Of a stretch of DNA of 64,000 nt, positions 3,782 to 54,139 are shown piece after piece. Within the stretch, counting starts at the first letter, position 1, and the number at the start of each line of letters is the position of its first letter. Location: the NCBI GenBank assembly GCA_025936825.1, contig JAICSO010000013.1, positions 1 to 64,000 of the forward strand, written 5' to 3'. The notes beneath the pieces are model-generated. The model ran no database searches and had not been told where the DNA came from. It saw nothing but the letters and a program-made list of their open reading frames with translations. Both the position numbers and the translations under genes were made by a program. This DNA comes from Terriglobales bacterium (lineage in GTDB: Bacteria; Acidobacteriota; Terriglobia; Terriglobales; Acidobacteriaceae).

Positions 3782-5020
3782 ATGAGTAAATGTACAGGAG
3801 TATGGGCACTGCTCTTGGCCGTTGGCTGTGTTGCTTTTGCGGCGAACCCTGCCCCACGTGTGATTGATCTAACGGCTGCCGACGGCACGCCGCTGAAAGC
3901 AACTTACTTTGCCGCCGCCAGCGCCGGCCCCGGCGTGCTGCTGCTGCATCAGATCAATCGCGATCGCAAGTCGTGGGACTCGGTAGCCGCAAAGCTTGCA
4001 GCCGCCGGAATCAATACTCTCACCCTCGATTTGCGCGGTTTTGGCGAAAGCGGCATTCGCCTCGACAAATTAACTGAGGCTGAGCGCAACAAGTACCATC
4101 GCGGTTGGCCTGACGATGTGGACGCGGCACTCGGGTACTTAAGCTCGCAGCCAGGCGTAGATAGAAACCGAATTGGGGCGGCAGGAGCCGGCTGGCTCGG
4201 CGTCCTCTACTCCGTTAATGCGGCGCGCCGTCATTCTGAACAAATCAAGTCGCTCACACTAATGTCAGGCGAAACCCTTCGCGAAGGGTTGCAGTTTCTA
4301 CATCAGGCCTCGCAGTTGCCCGAACTCTTCGTGTTCTCCGATGACGACGAATATCCGCCGACGCAGGACGCGATGAAACTGCTCTATGTCACCGCATCCA
4401 GCCCGAGTAAGAAGCTGGTGCACTATCCCGAGGCCACAGACGCCCCATGGCTCTGGTACGAAGACTCTTCAGGAAAAGTCGCTGCTCACGGCGGCCACGG
4501 GACTGACATGTTTCAGGTTCATCCCGAGCTGCCCGGCATCATCGTCCATTGGTTTGTGACTTCGCTGGTCACGACTCCGGGTCACGCTCCTGCCGATGCG
4601 CTGGCTTCAGCGCCAATCCTGAATCAGCTGCAATCGCCCGGCGGAGCAGGTTTGGTCACACAGCAGCTATTGGAGGCCCGCCGCAAAGATCCTCAGATCC
4701 AGTTGTGGCCGGAGGTCGCCGGTGACATCATCGGTGAGGACTTTCAGCGTGCTGGCGATGTTAAGAACGCAATTGAAATTTTCAAGCTGAATCTCCTCGC
4801 TTATCCAGACTCGGCCGATGCACACTCTAACCTTGCCGACGCCTATTTGATGGATGGTCAGAAGGATCTCGCACGTCAATACGCCGAAAAGGCATTGACC
4901 TTGCTTGATTCCCATAAATCGCCGCTATCTTCCTGGTCCGATACTGAAGAGCGACGAACTGAGATTCGACGCGCCATCGAAAGTACGCTGGCGCGAGCTA
5001 GGAAGGAAGCCGAGAATTGA
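3782..5020 (+). CDS. secreted alpha/beta-hydrolase-like protein with C-terminal TPR, nucleophile apparently lost
   Basis: A 412-residue protein with a signal peptide (WALLLAVGCVAFA) and an alpha/beta-hydrolase fold at about residues 28-260. The oxyanion-side strand is GVLLLHQINRDRKSW and the next strand is TLTLDLRGFGESG. At the nucleophile elbow, where relatives have G-x-S/C-x-G, this protein reads GAAGAGWLGV, so no Ser or Cys stands in the expected place. Residues of about 320-385 form TPR-like helices (AIEIFKLNLLAYPDSADAH, LADAYLMDGQKDLARQYAE). A GGGGAGAG ribosome site precedes the ATG. It may be a non-catalytic binding protein. It lies just downstream of the amidohydrolase remnant. Confidence 0.7.
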   Translation: MSKCTGVWALLLAVGCVAFAANPAPRVIDLTAADGTPLKATYFAAASAGPGVLLLHQINRDRKSWDSVAAKLAAAGINTLTLDLRGFGESGIRLDKLTEAERNKYHRGWPDDVDAALGYLSSQPGVDRNRIGAAGAGWLGVLYSVNAARRHSEQIKSLTLMSGETLREGLQFLHQASQLPELFVFSDDDEYPPTQDAMKLLYVTASSPSKKLVHYPEATDAPWLWYEDSSGKVAAHGGHGTDMFQVHPELPGIIVHWFVTSLVTTPGHAPADALASAPILNQLQSPGGAGLVTQQLLEARRKDPQIQLWPEVAGDIIGEDFQRAGDVKNAIEIFKLNLLAYPDSADAHSNLADAYLMDGQKDLARQYAEKALTLLDSHKSPLSSWSDTEERRTEIRRAIESTLARARKEAEN

Positions 5021-5146
5021 GAATGTCAGTCGAGGCCTAGCAAACCGTTGAAGGGAATCCTAGTCACTTTCGGATGGGCAAGTACGGAAGACCCGGCGCA
5101 ACTGGAGCCAGGGAACAGAGGTAAAAACTTTGTCAATAAAGATTCA

Positions 5147-5171
5147 GCCCCTGCTCAGGCCGGGGTTTTTC
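5147..5171 (+). terminator. probable rho-independent terminator
   Basis: A short GC-rich hairpin (CCCC at 5148-5151 with GGGG at 5162-5165, extended imperfectly inside) is followed directly by TTTTT. It lies about 130 bases after the hydrolase-like gene and before the next start, which is a suitable place for termination. Confidence 0.5.
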
Positions 5172-5229
5172 GTAGCGATTTGGTATAGCATTTTGCGACG
5201 CAAGCTCAATCAACAGATTGGTGGACGAA

Positions 5230-5750
5230 ATGATTCGACGCCTCTTGTTGTTAGTTCTCGCACTCAGCACCGTTTGTTTTGCGCAACGTCCTCCCGTCAA
5301 GTCGCAACTCCTTGATCGCCTTGCGGGGAAATGGGTGTCGAAGGCTGAGATCGGGAGCCATAAGAGTATCCGCGACATCGAGGGCGAATGGGTGATTCAG
5401 CATCACTATCTTCGGCTTCACGAAGTCTCGCGGGAGAAGGACGCCAACGGGAAAGCCCTCTACGAAGCCATGGAATACCTGACGACTGGGCCGGGCAAAA
5501 ACCAAATCCAGTGTGTGTGGCTGGATGTGTTCGCGGGTTCCGGCCTGACGTTCGTAGGGGTGATGCGAAGGAGAACGACATTCCGTTGGTCTTCAAAGAT
5601 GACAAAGGTGAGGTTGGATTCACAAACGAGTTCACCTACGATCCGAAGACTGACAGCTGGCAATGGACGATGAGCAATATCGACCATGGCAAAGCTACCC
5701 CGTTCGGGACTGAAAAGCTTTCACGGGCTGCCGCACAAACACAAAGCTGA
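5230..5750 (+). pseudogene. secreted DUF1579-like protein, frameshifted
   Basis: The ATG at 5230 opens a signal peptide (MIRRLLLLVLALSTVCFAQ), followed by a domain with the feel of small secreted lipocalin-like proteins (LDRLAGKWVSKAEIG, GEWVIQHHYLRLHE). At about 5555-5562 the frame must shift by one base: the first frame ends in LTFVG, and the continuation KENDIPLVFKDDKGEVGF, then TYDPKTDSWQW, is in another frame. The break falls at a GGGG run, and one more G would restore a single frame. It is therefore either a recent pseudogene or a sequencing undercall. The 3' end runs into an IS1182 transposase stub on the other strand. The family assignment is tentative. Confidence 0.6.
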
Positions 5751-5850
5751 TGTGCTTCTCGATCAGCCGCAGCAGATGATTCTCGGGAATGTGATCTTCC
5801 AGGCGGAAGTAGTAGAACAATGCTTCAGAGCGGTCGTGTTGCCCCATCAT
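5698..5850 (-). mobile_element. IS1182-family transposase N-terminal stub
   Basis: On the minus strand, from the ATG at 5850, the sequence reads MMGQHDRSEALFYYFRLED, then HIPENHLLRLIEKHISF. This is the characteristic N-terminus of IS1182-type transposases. It stops after about 50 residues, where some 400 more would be expected, and no catalytic DDE residues are present. The truncation point coincides with the 3' end of the frameshifted gene on the plus strand, so the element was probably deleted down to this end. Confidence 0.75.
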
Positions 5851-6089
5851 GATCAGCAGGCCTCCGTTGACCGAAATCCAGCAAAGCATGCATCCTTCTA
5901 ACATGCTTTCGCTAAATCTCAGCTGCCAATCGCAGTGACTTTTTCAACACCCACTCGATTTATCACCAGTTCGGGCCATCAGGAGGAGTCAACTCATTTA
6001 TAGCTAAATAGAGGTAGCTCGGAAGTGCTGGGGCCACACCTTACACTTCCGGAATGTGATCTCGCGTTTCTGCGGTGATACTTTGGAGC

Positions 6090-15800: not shown

Positions 15801-17278
15801 TCAATGCGGTGACAAAATTGAAATACTTGGTTCCCGCGGGAGCAATTCCGGCAATTCGGCGGCGTTGTAAGCCCAACCAGCTAAGACCTGCGCGGCTTGA
15901 ACGACGCCGTCCTCTCGAATTTTGTCGAAGGTGTCTGCCGCAGAATGGTGAGTTCGGTAGTAATCCGTCTGCGTGCCCGAAGTGGCGAAACCGGGCACGC
16001 CGACCTCATTGAAGGATGCGTAATCGCTCCCATAGTAACGGTCCATGCCTGGTTCGGCTAAATTCAAGTCCTTCATGGGCGCCAGAACCGTATCCACCAG
16101 TTTGTGGGCCGCGAAGTTCTGGTTCAGCCGTATCGTCGAAAGTCGTCCCGTGCCACTGTCATCTGCGAGTACAGCTGAGATCTTGTTTAATTCAGACTGA
16201 TGTTGTTTCACGTACTCTCGGGAACCAACTTGTCCTTGATCTTCGCCGGTGAACAAAACCATTTGAATAGTCCGCCTGGGACGCAGACCCACAGCTTTTA
16301 TCGCGCGTAGCGCTTCCAGCACCGCCGCCACGCCAGTCCCATCGTCGGTGGCACCGGATCCCAAATCCCAGGAATCCAAGTGCGCACAAATAATGACTAG
16401 CTCGTCAGGCTTCTCGGAGCCACGGATTTGTGCCACTGTGTTATACGCGATGACCGGCCCCTCACTGAAGGAGTTGGTGAGCGAAAGTTCCAACTCCACG
16501 GGGGCATGCTGCATTAGTCTCCAAATTAATGCGTAATCTTCGTGGGTAAGCATGGCCACCGGTACGGGGGCGGGTTCGTATTCCCTACCGCGTTGGTCAT
16601 GGTTAATAACCCGTAGCTCTTGTCGGAATCGCGCAAGACTGCGGTGACACCCTGCTCTTTGAAAAACCTTTCGCGCGCCAAACCAAACTGCGCTTCGGGA
16701 GACACTTTGTTCCGGTCAGGCGCAGCTTCTGGAGTTTGAATTGGCGGAACTGGCGCCGCTGGAGGAGGATTGGCTTGCCAGTTAAGATCGAATGGCTGCT
16801 GAACCAAAACAATTGAACCTCTCAGTTTTCCCCGATATTTCTCCAGACCTTCGGCATTCTGGGCGGATACGTAAACAATGTTTCCATGCACATCGCCCGT
16901 AATTCCGGATGACCAGCCTGCGGATGCAATAGTAAGGTCTTTCAAAATGGGTTTCAGAATTCGTGCCCGGGCAGAACCCCGATGCCAGGAGTGGGCAAGT
17001 TCCCACTGTTCAAGATGAACATTTTCCAGCCCATACCGCCGGGCAAGTTCAGAGGCCCACTCTACCGAGCGCTGTAACTGGTCAGATCCTGTCAACCGAG
17101 GTCCGATTATGTCTGACAGGTATTCGAGATTCTTCATAATCTCGTTGTGGTCTCGAATCTCCTGAAAAATCCCCTTATCGATCGCTTCTGTTAATTCTTG
17201 TGCGGTTGTTCTCGGAGTGCACAACATTGCGACTCCCGCTAGTGCCAGCAAAGAACCAAATGGTCTTAAGTCCGTCAT
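15801..17278 (-). pseudogene. secreted M28-family zinc aminopeptidase, interrupted by one frameshift
   Basis: The first part (ATG at 17278) has a signal peptide and the N-terminal region of M28 peptidases with the inserted PA-like domain (LSDIIGPRLTGSDQLQRSV, GNIVYVSAQNAEGLEKYRG). Near 16560 the frame breaks at a CCCCC run; one extra C would restore the expected PVPVAMLTHEDYALI. The second part holds all the zinc and catalytic residues: the HLDSWDLGSGATDDGTG block, FTGEDQGQVGS, and a late His in HHSAADTFDK. The joined product is about 490 residues, near family length. Because everything else is intact, a sequencing undercall is as likely as real inactivation. It would cleave N-terminal residues from peptides in the periplasm. 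Confidence 0.8.
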
Positions 17279-17479: not shown

Positions 17480-17570
17480 TGTGGTCCAATTATGGTCCAG
17501 TAATTGTTCCTGATTGCGCCAAAACCGCTTTGTGGAGCCACCCGCGTCGCAGTTTGTCAATCAGTTACGA
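17480..17570 (+). repeat. island-end arm sequence 1 (repeated TGGTCCA sites)
   Basis: It contains two closely spaced copies of the TGGTCCA element, then an AAAACCGC step and the GCCACCCGCGTCGC block, ending 12 bases before the tRNA-Asp half-site. The same layout recurs at 18291 and, diverged, at 7441. Repeated short sites beside an attachment core are typical of integrase arm-type binding sites, although this is inference. Confidence 0.5.
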
Positions 17571-17582
17571 CCGGACTGGTCG

Positions 17583-17627
17583 CTGTCACGGCAGAGGCCG
17601 CGGGTTCGAGTCCCGTCGTCCCCGCCA
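17583..17627 (+). repeat. attachment-site-like 3' half of tRNA-Asp, copy 1
   Basis: The 45 bases match the 3' half of a tRNA-Asp(GTC) gene. They start exactly at the anticodon loop (CTGTCAC) and include the 3' anticodon stem GGCAG, the T-arm with GGGTTCGAGTCCC, the acceptor strand CGTCCCC, a G discriminator and CCA. The bases before the loop do not pair with GGCAG, so this is not a complete tRNA. Such 3' halves are left at the borders of elements that integrate into tRNA genes. Confidence 0.8.
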
Positions 17628-17639
17628 TTCCTTCCAAAA

Positions 17640-17890
17640 GAGTTCTCTGGAATTGCCGGAAACCGCAGGGGGTGCAAAAGGACATAGATTTGTGTCCTTT
17701 TGGTGCCCTTTTTGTCGTTAATTTCCGCCAGCCACTTTGCGGCTAACTTTGCTGCCGACTGAATTCCTTGTGCTGACAAAACAATGGACATTACTGTATT
17801 CTGAGCGGCATATTTTGATGGAGTGATCGCCTGAGTGTAGACGTCCAACGTCGATCGCAATGAAGAATGTCGCAACAGTTCCTGCATCAC
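17640..17890 (-). pseudogene. tyrosine recombinase (integrase) C-terminal fragment 1
   Basis: On the minus strand, directly abutting the tRNA half-site, one frame reads MMQELLRHSSLRSTLDVYTQ, then ITPSKYAAQNTV. This is the last part of a phage-type integrase, including the catalytic Tyr in LDVYTQ. The Arg/His/Arg residues and the rest of the catalytic domain are absent. The open frame continues rightwards to leftwards through the tRNA half and would end in a meaningless GGDDGTRTRG tail. Confidence 0.8.
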
Positions 17891-18608: not shown

Positions 18609-19076
18609 TCAGAAGCGAACACCAGCGCGAGCACTGCTGCCTGTGCCGCATGCTTTGCGGGCAAGATCGCCTGGCCCCCTGCGACCTCGGTGTCGTTTGC
18701 TCGCGAAAACCCAGTCGTCGTCTGCGATAAAGTGTGAAGCGTCTTTCCATTTCGCGAGGGACTCCAAAACTGTCGGATGGACCGGCACGGGCTTCTGAGA
18801 GGATTCTGTCTTGCACGGACCCACTCCACCGCACACGATTGAGCGCGGGACGCTCATTGTCCCTTGGGCGAAATTGATGTCGCCCCACTTTAGCCCGAAA
18901 AGCTCACTCTGCCGCAATCCCGTCGACGCGACGACGAGCACGAGCGTGCGTTCTCGCAAGCTCAGATTATCGATGAGCGCCTTTATTTCAAGGGGTGTCA
19001 GCACACTAGGAGTGCCTCGTCGCTTTGCACCTTGTCGAACCAGACGGACGACTGCCGTCCCATTGCTAAAGGCCAA
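18609..19076 (-). pseudogene. tyrosine recombinase (integrase) central fragment 2
   Basis: The minus strand encodes the start of an integrase catalytic domain (LVRQGAKRRGTPSVLTPLEI, then VLVVASTGLRQSELFGLKWG with the first catalytic Arg). It continues through the beta strands (KPVPVHPTVLESLAKW) to DDWVFASKRHRGRR. After about residue 130 the frame turns to unrelated residues, so the second half with the His, Arg and Tyr is missing. The N-terminal SAM-like DNA-binding domain is also largely absent. Confidence 0.75.
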
Positions 19077-19171: not shown

Positions 19172-19784
19172 ATGACCTGGATCAGAACTATTCCACTCTC
19201 AGAGGCCAATGAGAAACTGCTGCATTCTTTAGAATCGCAGCGTGCACTTTATCCTAAGGAATACGCGACGCCGGTGTTCAAGACTGACGATGGCGTGGCG
19301 GGGATCGTTGCGTCACACAGCTTGATTCCGGACGCACTGCACATTCGGCGTGCTGATGTCCCCGGAATTACCGCTGACTCGCCGGCAGCACGAGATGATC
19401 ACCACCATGGTTTCGGTGACCAACCGCTGTTTCTATTGAATCGAGTCGCATGCAGAGTTTCTGCGTAGGGCGAGTTTAGACGACGAACTAGTCGCGGCAT
19501 TGCGGCAGGACTACACGAAAGCCAACATCTCCGAGCAGGATCGTGCCATGCTTGATTACGTGGTCAAGCTGACAAAAGACGCGACCAAATGCTCTCCCGA
19601 AGATCATGCGCGGCTGCGGAAGTCAGGTTTTGATGACCGAGGCATTCTGCAGATTACGCTGATCGCCTCCTGGTTTAACTACATCAATCGTGTGGCGGAT
19701 TCTCTTGGAGTGGGCAGAGACTGGGGAACCAAGGACCTGATTCGTCAGTCCGAGCAGGGTGAGGTTGCTGCTTCACGCAAGTGA
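19172..19784 (+). pseudogene. AhpD-like (CMD-family) peroxidase-related gene with TGA at the second Cys of CxxC; one frameshift
   Basis: From the ATG at 19172 the sequence reads the N-terminal part of the peroxidase-related branch of the carboxymuconolactone decarboxylase/AhpD family (GIVASHSLIPDAL). Near 19341-19346 one extra base (or a two-base loss) shifts the frame. The continuation reads FGVLMSPELPLTRRQHEMI, then VTNRCFY, then TGA at 19437-19439, then [19 protein letters not shown], and runs to 19784 without further lesions. The family's redox motif is CxxC inside NRCFYCIESH, so the TGA replaces exactly the second catalytic Cys. A 7-bp hairpin follows at the position expected for a bacterial SECIS element. 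It may be a selenoprotein gene (CxxU), a decayed one, or a plain pseudogene. The frameshift is the main argument against present function. Confidence 0.7.
19450..19466 (+). promoter_or_regulatory. SECIS-like hairpin after the TGA of the AhpD-like gene
   Basis: Bases 19450-19456 pair with 19460-19466 (seven pairs, one G-U) around the loop GTT. The loop begins 17 bases after the TGA and has G in first position. Published bacterial SECIS patterns call for a small apical loop with G in the first two bases at about 16-37 bases from the UGA. The coding sequence alone could produce this by chance. Confidence 0.45.
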
Positions 19785-53033: not shown

Positions 53034-53488
53034 TACTAGAATCCCTCAACCATAATACCGCCGCGTCGAGTCAGGGCAGGGGACGTCGAACACCGGGCGG
53101 AGGCTATCGCATTGGGCTCTGGGCCACGAAGAACATGCTGGAAAAGCGACGCTGCAAATCGTCGTACGCAGTAAAGAAGCCTGACGGGCAGCGTCATGAG
53201 CTTGGCATTCCCACTACCCGTGGTTGCCGGCACGGCTTGACTCCACGAACGGTCCCATGCTCATCTAATGCTTCCGGTGTCCCCATATCGGATCACGAGC
53301 TATTTTAAGGACTGCTATTTCTTCTATAGGACGCGAGCGCGAGCAAGGGATCTCTGTGAATACAGGAAATTCTGTATTTTTCCGAGTTGACCTTTGCGTC
53401 AGTATGTAGTTGCAGGATTCTCTGTATGTCGCGCCGAACTGCGTTTAGTCTTGAGTTCCGGTGCGGAAAGCAATATCGGAGGTGCGTA
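53034..53488. other. 455-bp spacer, no supported gene
   Basis: No frame on either strand looks coding. It lies upstream of both the LuxR-type regulator and the MEDS sensor gene and is the likely place for their promoters, which I could not define. Confidence 0.5.
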
Positions 53489-54139
53489 ATGGTCAATGGC
53501 GAACAGCCTATTCATTTTGCCAATGCGACGCTCGGAACCCAGCGTCACATTTGCGCTTTTTTTCACTCTCCGGATGAAGAATACCGCACATTGCTTCCGT
53601 TCATTCGCGAAGGCCTCGAACGCGGGGAAAAGGCATTTCATATAGTTGATCCCCAATTGATGGAAGACCATTTTCACCGCCTACAAGATGCAGGAATTGA
53701 AACCGAGAAGGCGCGCGAGCGGGGGCAGTTGGTGGTGAAGCGCTGGCAAGATGCGTATTTGCGCGATGGCCATTTTGACCAGGACCGTATGTTGGCACTG
53801 ATCGAAGAAGTACTCACCGCGGGCCCGAAGGAGGGTTACGCGTTAACTCGGCTCGTCGCCCACATGGAATGGGCGTTGGAAGATTTTCCGGGCGTCAACG
53901 ATCTGGTGGAATATGAAACGCGCCTGAATTTCGTGCTACCGAAGTACAAAGATCCCGTCATATGAACCTATGACTGCGCCAAGTTTGGCGCCGGGATTGC
54001 AATGGATATTCTCAGGACCCACCCGATGGTGATCCTTGGGGGCGTGCTGCAGAGGAACCCATTCTTCGTACCACCGGCGGAGTTCCTCGCCGAACTCCGC
54101 GAACGTGGCGCATATGGGTCGCGCTCGACAGTAGCATAG
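53489..54139 (+). CDS. MEDS-domain sensor with an in-frame TGA at the conserved Cys (candidate selenoprotein)
   Basis: ATG 53489 has GGAGGT upstream at good spacing. The frame shows the MEDS (DcmR sensory) domain: HICAFFHSPDEEY at the start, then FIREGLERGEKAFHIVDP and EYETRLNFVLPKYKDPVI. There it meets TGA at 53963-53965. Reading on in the same frame gives TYDCAKFGAGIAMDILRTHP, then MVILGGVLQRNPFFVPPAEF and LAELRERG, which is the normal end of the domain, to TAG at 54137. Family members usually read VICTYD at this point, so the TGA replaces the conserved Cys. With read-through the product is 216 residues and stops five bases before the kinase gene. Termination at TGA would give 158 residues. 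The domain is thought to sense small carbon compounds through conserved His and Cys. Confidence 0.75.
53976..53991 (+). promoter_or_regulatory. SECIS-like hairpin after the TGA of the MEDS gene
   Basis: GCGCCA at 53976-53981 pairs perfectly with TGGCGC at 53986-53991 around the loop AGTT. The loop starts 16 bases after the TGA and has G in second position. This meets the general bacterial SECIS pattern (short stem, small loop, G in the first two bases, 16-37 bases from UGA). Confidence 0.55.

Follow-up and report, generated by a model that had tools for sequence, protein, structure and literature searches.

The locus analysed here raises two questions: does the TGA that interrupts the catalytic motif of an AhpD-like peroxidase gene stand for selenocysteine (Sec, U), and is the copy that carries it still a working gene? 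It lies in a stretch of 64,000 nucleotides from a soil bacterium, the whole of which is called the window below. Translation gives NRCFY up to a TGA at 19437-19439 and goes on in the same frame to a stop at 19782-19784, so that the C-terminus is intact, as the original prediction had it. Standard gene callers halt at TGA and would split such a gene. Its parts are the following.

19172 to 19340, forward strand: N-terminal part of the AhpD-like gene, in frame 2 (MTWIRTIPLSEAN...SLIPDALH), ending at the deletion; tblastn with orthologues places residue 1 at 19172, and the part is further defined by DNA alignment with 11 orthologues.
19338 to 19346, forward strand: site of a frame-changing deletion of 14 nt, with a breakpoint uncertain by a few bases; 11 of 11 orthologues are longer here in the DNA alignment.
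19341 to 19784, forward strand: C-terminal part, in frame 3, which contains the CMD/AhpD core and the TGA and runs to the terminal stop (translation, TIGR01926, PF02627).
19428 to 19430, forward strand: TGT, the Cys of the CxxU motif (C-F-Y-U), read from the sequence; this Cys is invariant in a 24-row alignment.
19437 to 19439, forward strand: TGA, read as the selenocysteine codon from its presence in the relatives described below.
19450 to 19466, forward strand: bSECIS-type hairpin ATGCAGA-GTT-TCTGCGT of 7 bp, with arms at 19450-19456 and 19460-19466 and the loop GUU at 19457-19459 (folding geometry, nucleotide-level conservation).

The C-terminal part scores 105.7 bits against the NCBIfam model TIGR01926 (peroxidase-related, AhpD-like; cut-off 81.8), the intact orthologue of L015 scores 108.9 bits against the same model, and PF02627 matches the C-terminal part with 37.5 bits (cut-off 23). 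The closest solved structures by sequence are of the AhpD-like type (3c1l, E 3.7e-21; 2pfx, 6k40, 2oyo and 2prr). An AlphaFold2 model of the intact orthologue L072 (mean pLDDT 80.5, pTM 0.77; the five models span 55.0-80.5) has an all-helical AhpD fold, and Foldseek with this model returns the same five structures at E values of 2e-8 to 1e-6, among them 6k40 with E 2.3e-8 and TM 0.69. The intact protein is about 188 amino acids long, with the active-site motif C-x-x-Sec followed by a His, and the orthologue is single-copy in the window's genome. A complete, all-helical chain of this kind is encoded in a single reading frame; the window copy is about five residues short and switches frame, and for this reason it is a broken member of TIGR01926, probably inactivated. 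We are confident that the locus is the gene for an AhpD-like peroxidase-related selenoprotein of the TIGR01926 type, and that the copy in this assembly carries a deletion of 14 nt, which is probably inactivating.

The frame change had been attributed to a one-base shift near 19341-19346. This has to be revised, as alignment with the orthologues shows that 14 nt are absent relative to all 11 aligned sequences. The missing nucleotides fall between the codons of a conserved Leu (L56) and of the following Phe-Gly; the stretch lost corresponds approximately to residues 57-61, which include His58 and Phe60, both invariant in the 24-row alignment, and lies inside helix 53-66 of the L072 model. Apart from this lesion the gene is well preserved: the window differs at only three of the 87 columns with a conservation of 95% or more, in each case by a small change to Ser, while among the 92 other rows 52 differ at none of these columns and 28 at one. 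The NG86 dN/dS ratio is 0.08-0.11 between the window and the four relatives with unsaturated Ks, versus 0.06-0.11 for the four intact pairs with unsaturated Ks. These sequence comparisons indicate that the rest of the gene is under ordinary purifying selection, and therefore that the lesion is either recent or an error of the consensus.

The neighbourhood bears on this choice. Two features on the other strand precede the gene.

15801 to 17278, reverse strand: M28 peptidase gene (PF04389), split by a frameshift near 16571-16598; tblastn with three intact relatives finds it in frames -1 and -3.
18609 to 19076, reverse strand: fragment of a tyrosine recombinase (integrase), covering positions 3-102 of the 172 of profile PF00589.

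The relatives of the M28 peptidase are open over 507-556 amino acids. The integrase fragment is just upstream of the AhpD-like gene, between it and the M28 peptidase gene. A small ORF at 17561-17890 (reverse strand), for which there is no Pfam or NCBIfam match, looks like a detached C-terminal piece of an integrase, as judged from its sequence. Because the lesions cluster, with the deletion, the frameshifted M28 gene and the partial integrase close together, a locally decaying stretch is favoured, short of proof, in agreement with the suspicion of decay voiced in the original prediction.

The most serious alternative to decay is that the living cell has an intact, working selenoprotein gene and that the 14-nt gap and the M28 frameshift are both errors of assembly or consensus, which would leave the Sec reading unchanged. 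The dN/dS ratio of the window copy, the same as between intact orthologues, and the mere three altered columns, all with small changes to Ser, are as expected from such a gene; a poor consensus could explain why two frame lesions occur within 3 kb; and the assembly does have gaps, since a group of three genes that includes selB is absent from it (see below). However, a typical consensus error affects one base, so that a clean loss of 14 nt is atypical, and the adjoining integrase fragment points to a real rearranged stretch. The deletion is observed in the assembly; that it is real and inactivating we infer. In our judgement the decay is probably real, and an artefact of the consensus is a lesser possibility that still has to be taken seriously. 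Decay of the window copy being the preferred reading, a residual activity could come from the C-terminal frame translated alone from an internal start (GTG at 19350 or ATG at 19356), giving a short active CxxU protein. This frame does retain the PF02627/TIGR00778 core, the CxxU motif and the His without extra stops, but most of helix 53-66 is missing from it, as is the conserved N-terminal segment of the intact orthologues, and we consider an active product of this kind very unlikely.

The nature of the TGA is a separate matter, and here the relatives are informative. With the window protein as query, 13 places of at least 190 bits were found in 61 related genomes, its own place included, and each contains a TGA. 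In all 12 orthologues besides the window this TGA is at the second position of the CxxC motif (L022, left out of the 11-orthologue DNA alignment and of the codon count, had its TGA confirmed separately), and stop-free matches to the window protein in the 61 genomes reach at most 73 bits. A wider scan of named genomes gave 281 relatives. The analysis rests on the best 80 of these 281; their sources are Acidobacteriota (Terriglobia, Pyrinomonadaceae, Blastocatellia) together with MAGs that carry the labels Gemmatimonadetes and Latescibacterota. The CxxU site is TGA in every one of the 80 (78 were typed by sequence pattern, and L085 and L090 separately), and a scripted test found full-length frames read through the TGA in 76 of the 78 loci among these best 80. 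To the question of whether close homologues have Cys or Sec at this site, the answer is the U codon throughout, with no Cys form among the 92 loci besides the window, four pairs of which are identical as protein. These comparisons indicate that, by descent, TGA 19437-19439 is a true Sec codon, and the CxxU selenoprotein, which had been proposed as plausible, is as a reading of the gene family strongly supported by them; the insertion of Sec itself would follow the mechanism outlined below.

The hairpin is as originally described, with 7 bp, a GTT loop and a distance of 17 nt between the TGA and the loop. Taken by itself it is weak evidence, because 15 of the 159 TGA sites of the window with open flanking frames also have a stem of at least 6 bp at a comparable distance; as sole proof of Sec it was rejected on this ground, and it is its conservation that counts. 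In the best 80 of the 281 relatives the sequence GCAGAGTTTCTGCG is identical and at the same distance after the TGA (80/80), including silent positions that are variable elsewhere in the gene, and the last hairpin codon is CGT, with its final T, in 78 of the 80. The alignment of 12 rows (the window and 11 orthologues) has 74 columns with an invariant residue, Met and Trp excluded, and only nine of them use a single codon; seven of these nine are the Tyr codon TAT before the TGA, the TGA, and the hairpin codons GCA, GAG, TTT, CTG and CGT, and two are elsewhere. With the TGA omitted, single-codon columns make up 6 of 7 at the hairpin site versus 2 of 66 elsewhere (Fisher p = 1.1e-6, a value that is only a guide because the 12 rows are related). 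Similarly, at positions where the residue is at least 97% conserved in the best 80 of 281, the share of the commonest codon is 0.97-1.0 for codons +4 to +9 and does not exceed 0.94 elsewhere, the TGA aside. A distant relative, L025, whose aligned part is 39% identical to the query, keeps this geometry; its stem is ACGGAGA/TCTCCGT and its loop GGA, one pair of the stem being changed on both sides, that is, in a compensatory manner. The conservation of these nucleotides argues that the hairpin is under nucleotide-level selection.

The folding energy of the window hairpin differs between the short and the longer stretch. Its loop, stem and spacing are within the limits of the bSECIS model as quoted in the accessible text of PMC13188914, and the same text gives a minimum free energy limit of -7.5 kcal/mol, which the window's 17-nt hairpin by itself does not reach (-6.4 kcal/mol, versus -8.2 for the consensus). 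The 47-nt stretch around the hairpin folds at -13.5 kcal/mol, with a z score of -2.2. The window hairpin contains a G-U pair, and the same change is found in one intact orthologue, L074. Rfam at gathering thresholds has no match in the window, which says nothing either way.

A Sec codon needs its machinery, and the check advised for the same genome turned out positive in most parts. The assembly (6.54 Mb in 141 contigs, 99.67% complete) contains a single clear tRNA-Sec (selC; 69 bits, called by ARAGORN as SeC with anticodon tca), selA (551.9 bits combined) and selD (346.7 bits combined), the latter being of the Sec type, with a TGA of its own in the active site (U in AGUASKLSP). The part that could not be confirmed is selB: neither the family model nor the selB protein from the same genus finds it in the assembly, where their matches are elongation-factor-like GTPases only. 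A selB above cut-off is found in 47 of the 61 related genomes. In two genomes of the same genus, G003 (L062) and G004 (L061), selB adjoins two genes that, from the look of their sequences, we take to be purL and purF. These two of G003 have no orthologue in the window's genome either, purL giving just a 27.9-bit match and purF just one of 69.3 bits that covers 176 of 477 residues. As three neighbouring genes are all absent from a nearly complete assembly, a gap in the assembly is the likeliest explanation from these sequence searches; a true loss of selB was considered, and is less likely than a gap because purL and purF are missing along with it. The idea that the gene is that of an ordinary Cys enzyme, turned by a nonsense TGA into a plain pseudogene without Sec, would suit a copy with another lesion beside a broken neighbour, but it is scarcely credible and was rejected, given the same TGA in all 80 of the best 80 of 281 relatives and in 12 of 12 orthologues, the full-length read-through frames, the nucleotide-level conservation of the hairpin, and the tRNA-Sec, selA and Sec-type selD of this genome.

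The same genome contains another AhpD-like gene, from a different subfamily (C34:89990-90367; L057, about 4874-5872, reverse strand), with TGA in its CxxU motif (CPYU). The seven relatives of it that were inspected also have TGA there, and their downstream sequence is alike.

As to the origin of the gene, the orthologue is absent from the seven other genomes of the same genus examined, only two of which are at least 90% complete. In the tree, the window copy is outside a group of 73 rows, mostly Acidobacteriota of the Terriglobia type (support 91/93, below the star threshold); the nearest rows by tree path are from Gemmatimonadota, Latescibacterota and Pyrinomonadaceae, and the exact placement of the window copy is unsettled. 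The commonest neighbour family of the relatives, presumably an acyl-CoA ligase from its sequence, is found at 43 of the best 80 of 281 loci, family counts that include spurious antisense ORFs, and none of the window ORFs between 9 and 31 kb matches it at E 1e-20. Horizontal gain of the gene by the window lineage is possible. A broader proposal, which we put forward tentatively, is that of a Sec-obligate TIGR01926 clade whose SECIS is frozen at the nucleotide level in Acidobacteriota as well as in MAGs labelled Gemmatimonadetes or Latescibacterota, which reaches no Sec-specific NCBIfam cut-off, and whose gene the window lineage gained horizontally and is now losing.

In relatives with an intact gene, the hairpin immediately 3' of the UGA would be the binding site of SelB, which would bring Sec-tRNA, and the Sec-Cys pair may then act in thiol/selenol redox reactions like those of AhpD-type enzymes, by analogy with the family. 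In the window copy, the 14-nt deletion would take about five residues out of the conserved helix 53-66 and shift the frame; translation begun at 19172 would run out of the coding frame ahead of the UGA, so that no full-length enzyme would be made from the assembled copy. The clade is a clear case of codon choice giving way to selection on the RNA for Sec insertion, as five successive codons have frozen silent sites in the best 80 of 281 relatives, and, if the deletion is real, the window copy is a natural snapshot of the loss of a selenoprotein.

The original prediction also mentioned a second TGA site of the same hairpin geometry in the window. This is most likely the one at 53963-53965.

53486 to 54139, forward strand: MEDS-domain protein (PF14417, 138.6 bits), with the TGA at 53963-53965 in DPVI-U-TYDCAKF.

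Behind this TGA there is a hairpin, GCGCCA-AGTT-TGGCGC. The two close relatives, 86% identical (G011 and G018), both have the TGA and the same hairpin, and two farther ones (G013 and G021, about 50%) have Cys at the TGA position. A literature search found no paper that links the MEDS domain with a selenoprotein or DcmR with selenocysteine, and the word MEDS is absent from the accessible text of PMC13188914. From its sequence and that of its relatives, the MEDS-domain protein is a candidate for an unlisted selenoprotein family, and this case is possibly more novel than that of the AhpD-like gene.

The AhpD-like gene itself belongs to a kind that is already known, because AhpD-like selenoproteins with CxxU appear in the accessible texts of PMC13188914 and PMC2398784; it is an added, damaged member of a listed family and not a new kind. 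A 2006 study, PMC1794560, gives, in its accessible text, three selenoprotein families with four selenoproteins for Acidobacteria. The original prediction was right in treating AhpD-like proteins as a known selenoprotein family: the accessible text of the 2026 review PMC13188914 lists one under TIGR01926 with CxxU, and the window gene is likened to this entry by the NCBIfam family and the Sec position (second of CxxC) alone, and differs from it by the frame-breaking deletion of 14 nt. AhpD-like 1 and 2 of the ocean survey PMC2398784 (Global Ocean Sampling) have, in the accessible text, CxxU and COG2128/pfam02627 in common with the window gene and, unlike it, are environmental sequences. NF041238, AhpD_rel_CFYUT alkylhydroperoxidase-related (seleno)protein, has a related AhpD core with CFYU as in the window gene, which is nevertheless not a member of it (59.6 bits, and 49.7 bits for an intact orthologue, versus a cut-off of 175). 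Finally, the Cys-type structures 3c1l, 2pfx, 6k40, 2oyo and 2prr resemble the window clade in fold and in the catalytic CxxC...H region; in a residue-by-residue alignment 3c1l has Cys where the window clade has Sec, and the other four are grouped with it as Cys-type.
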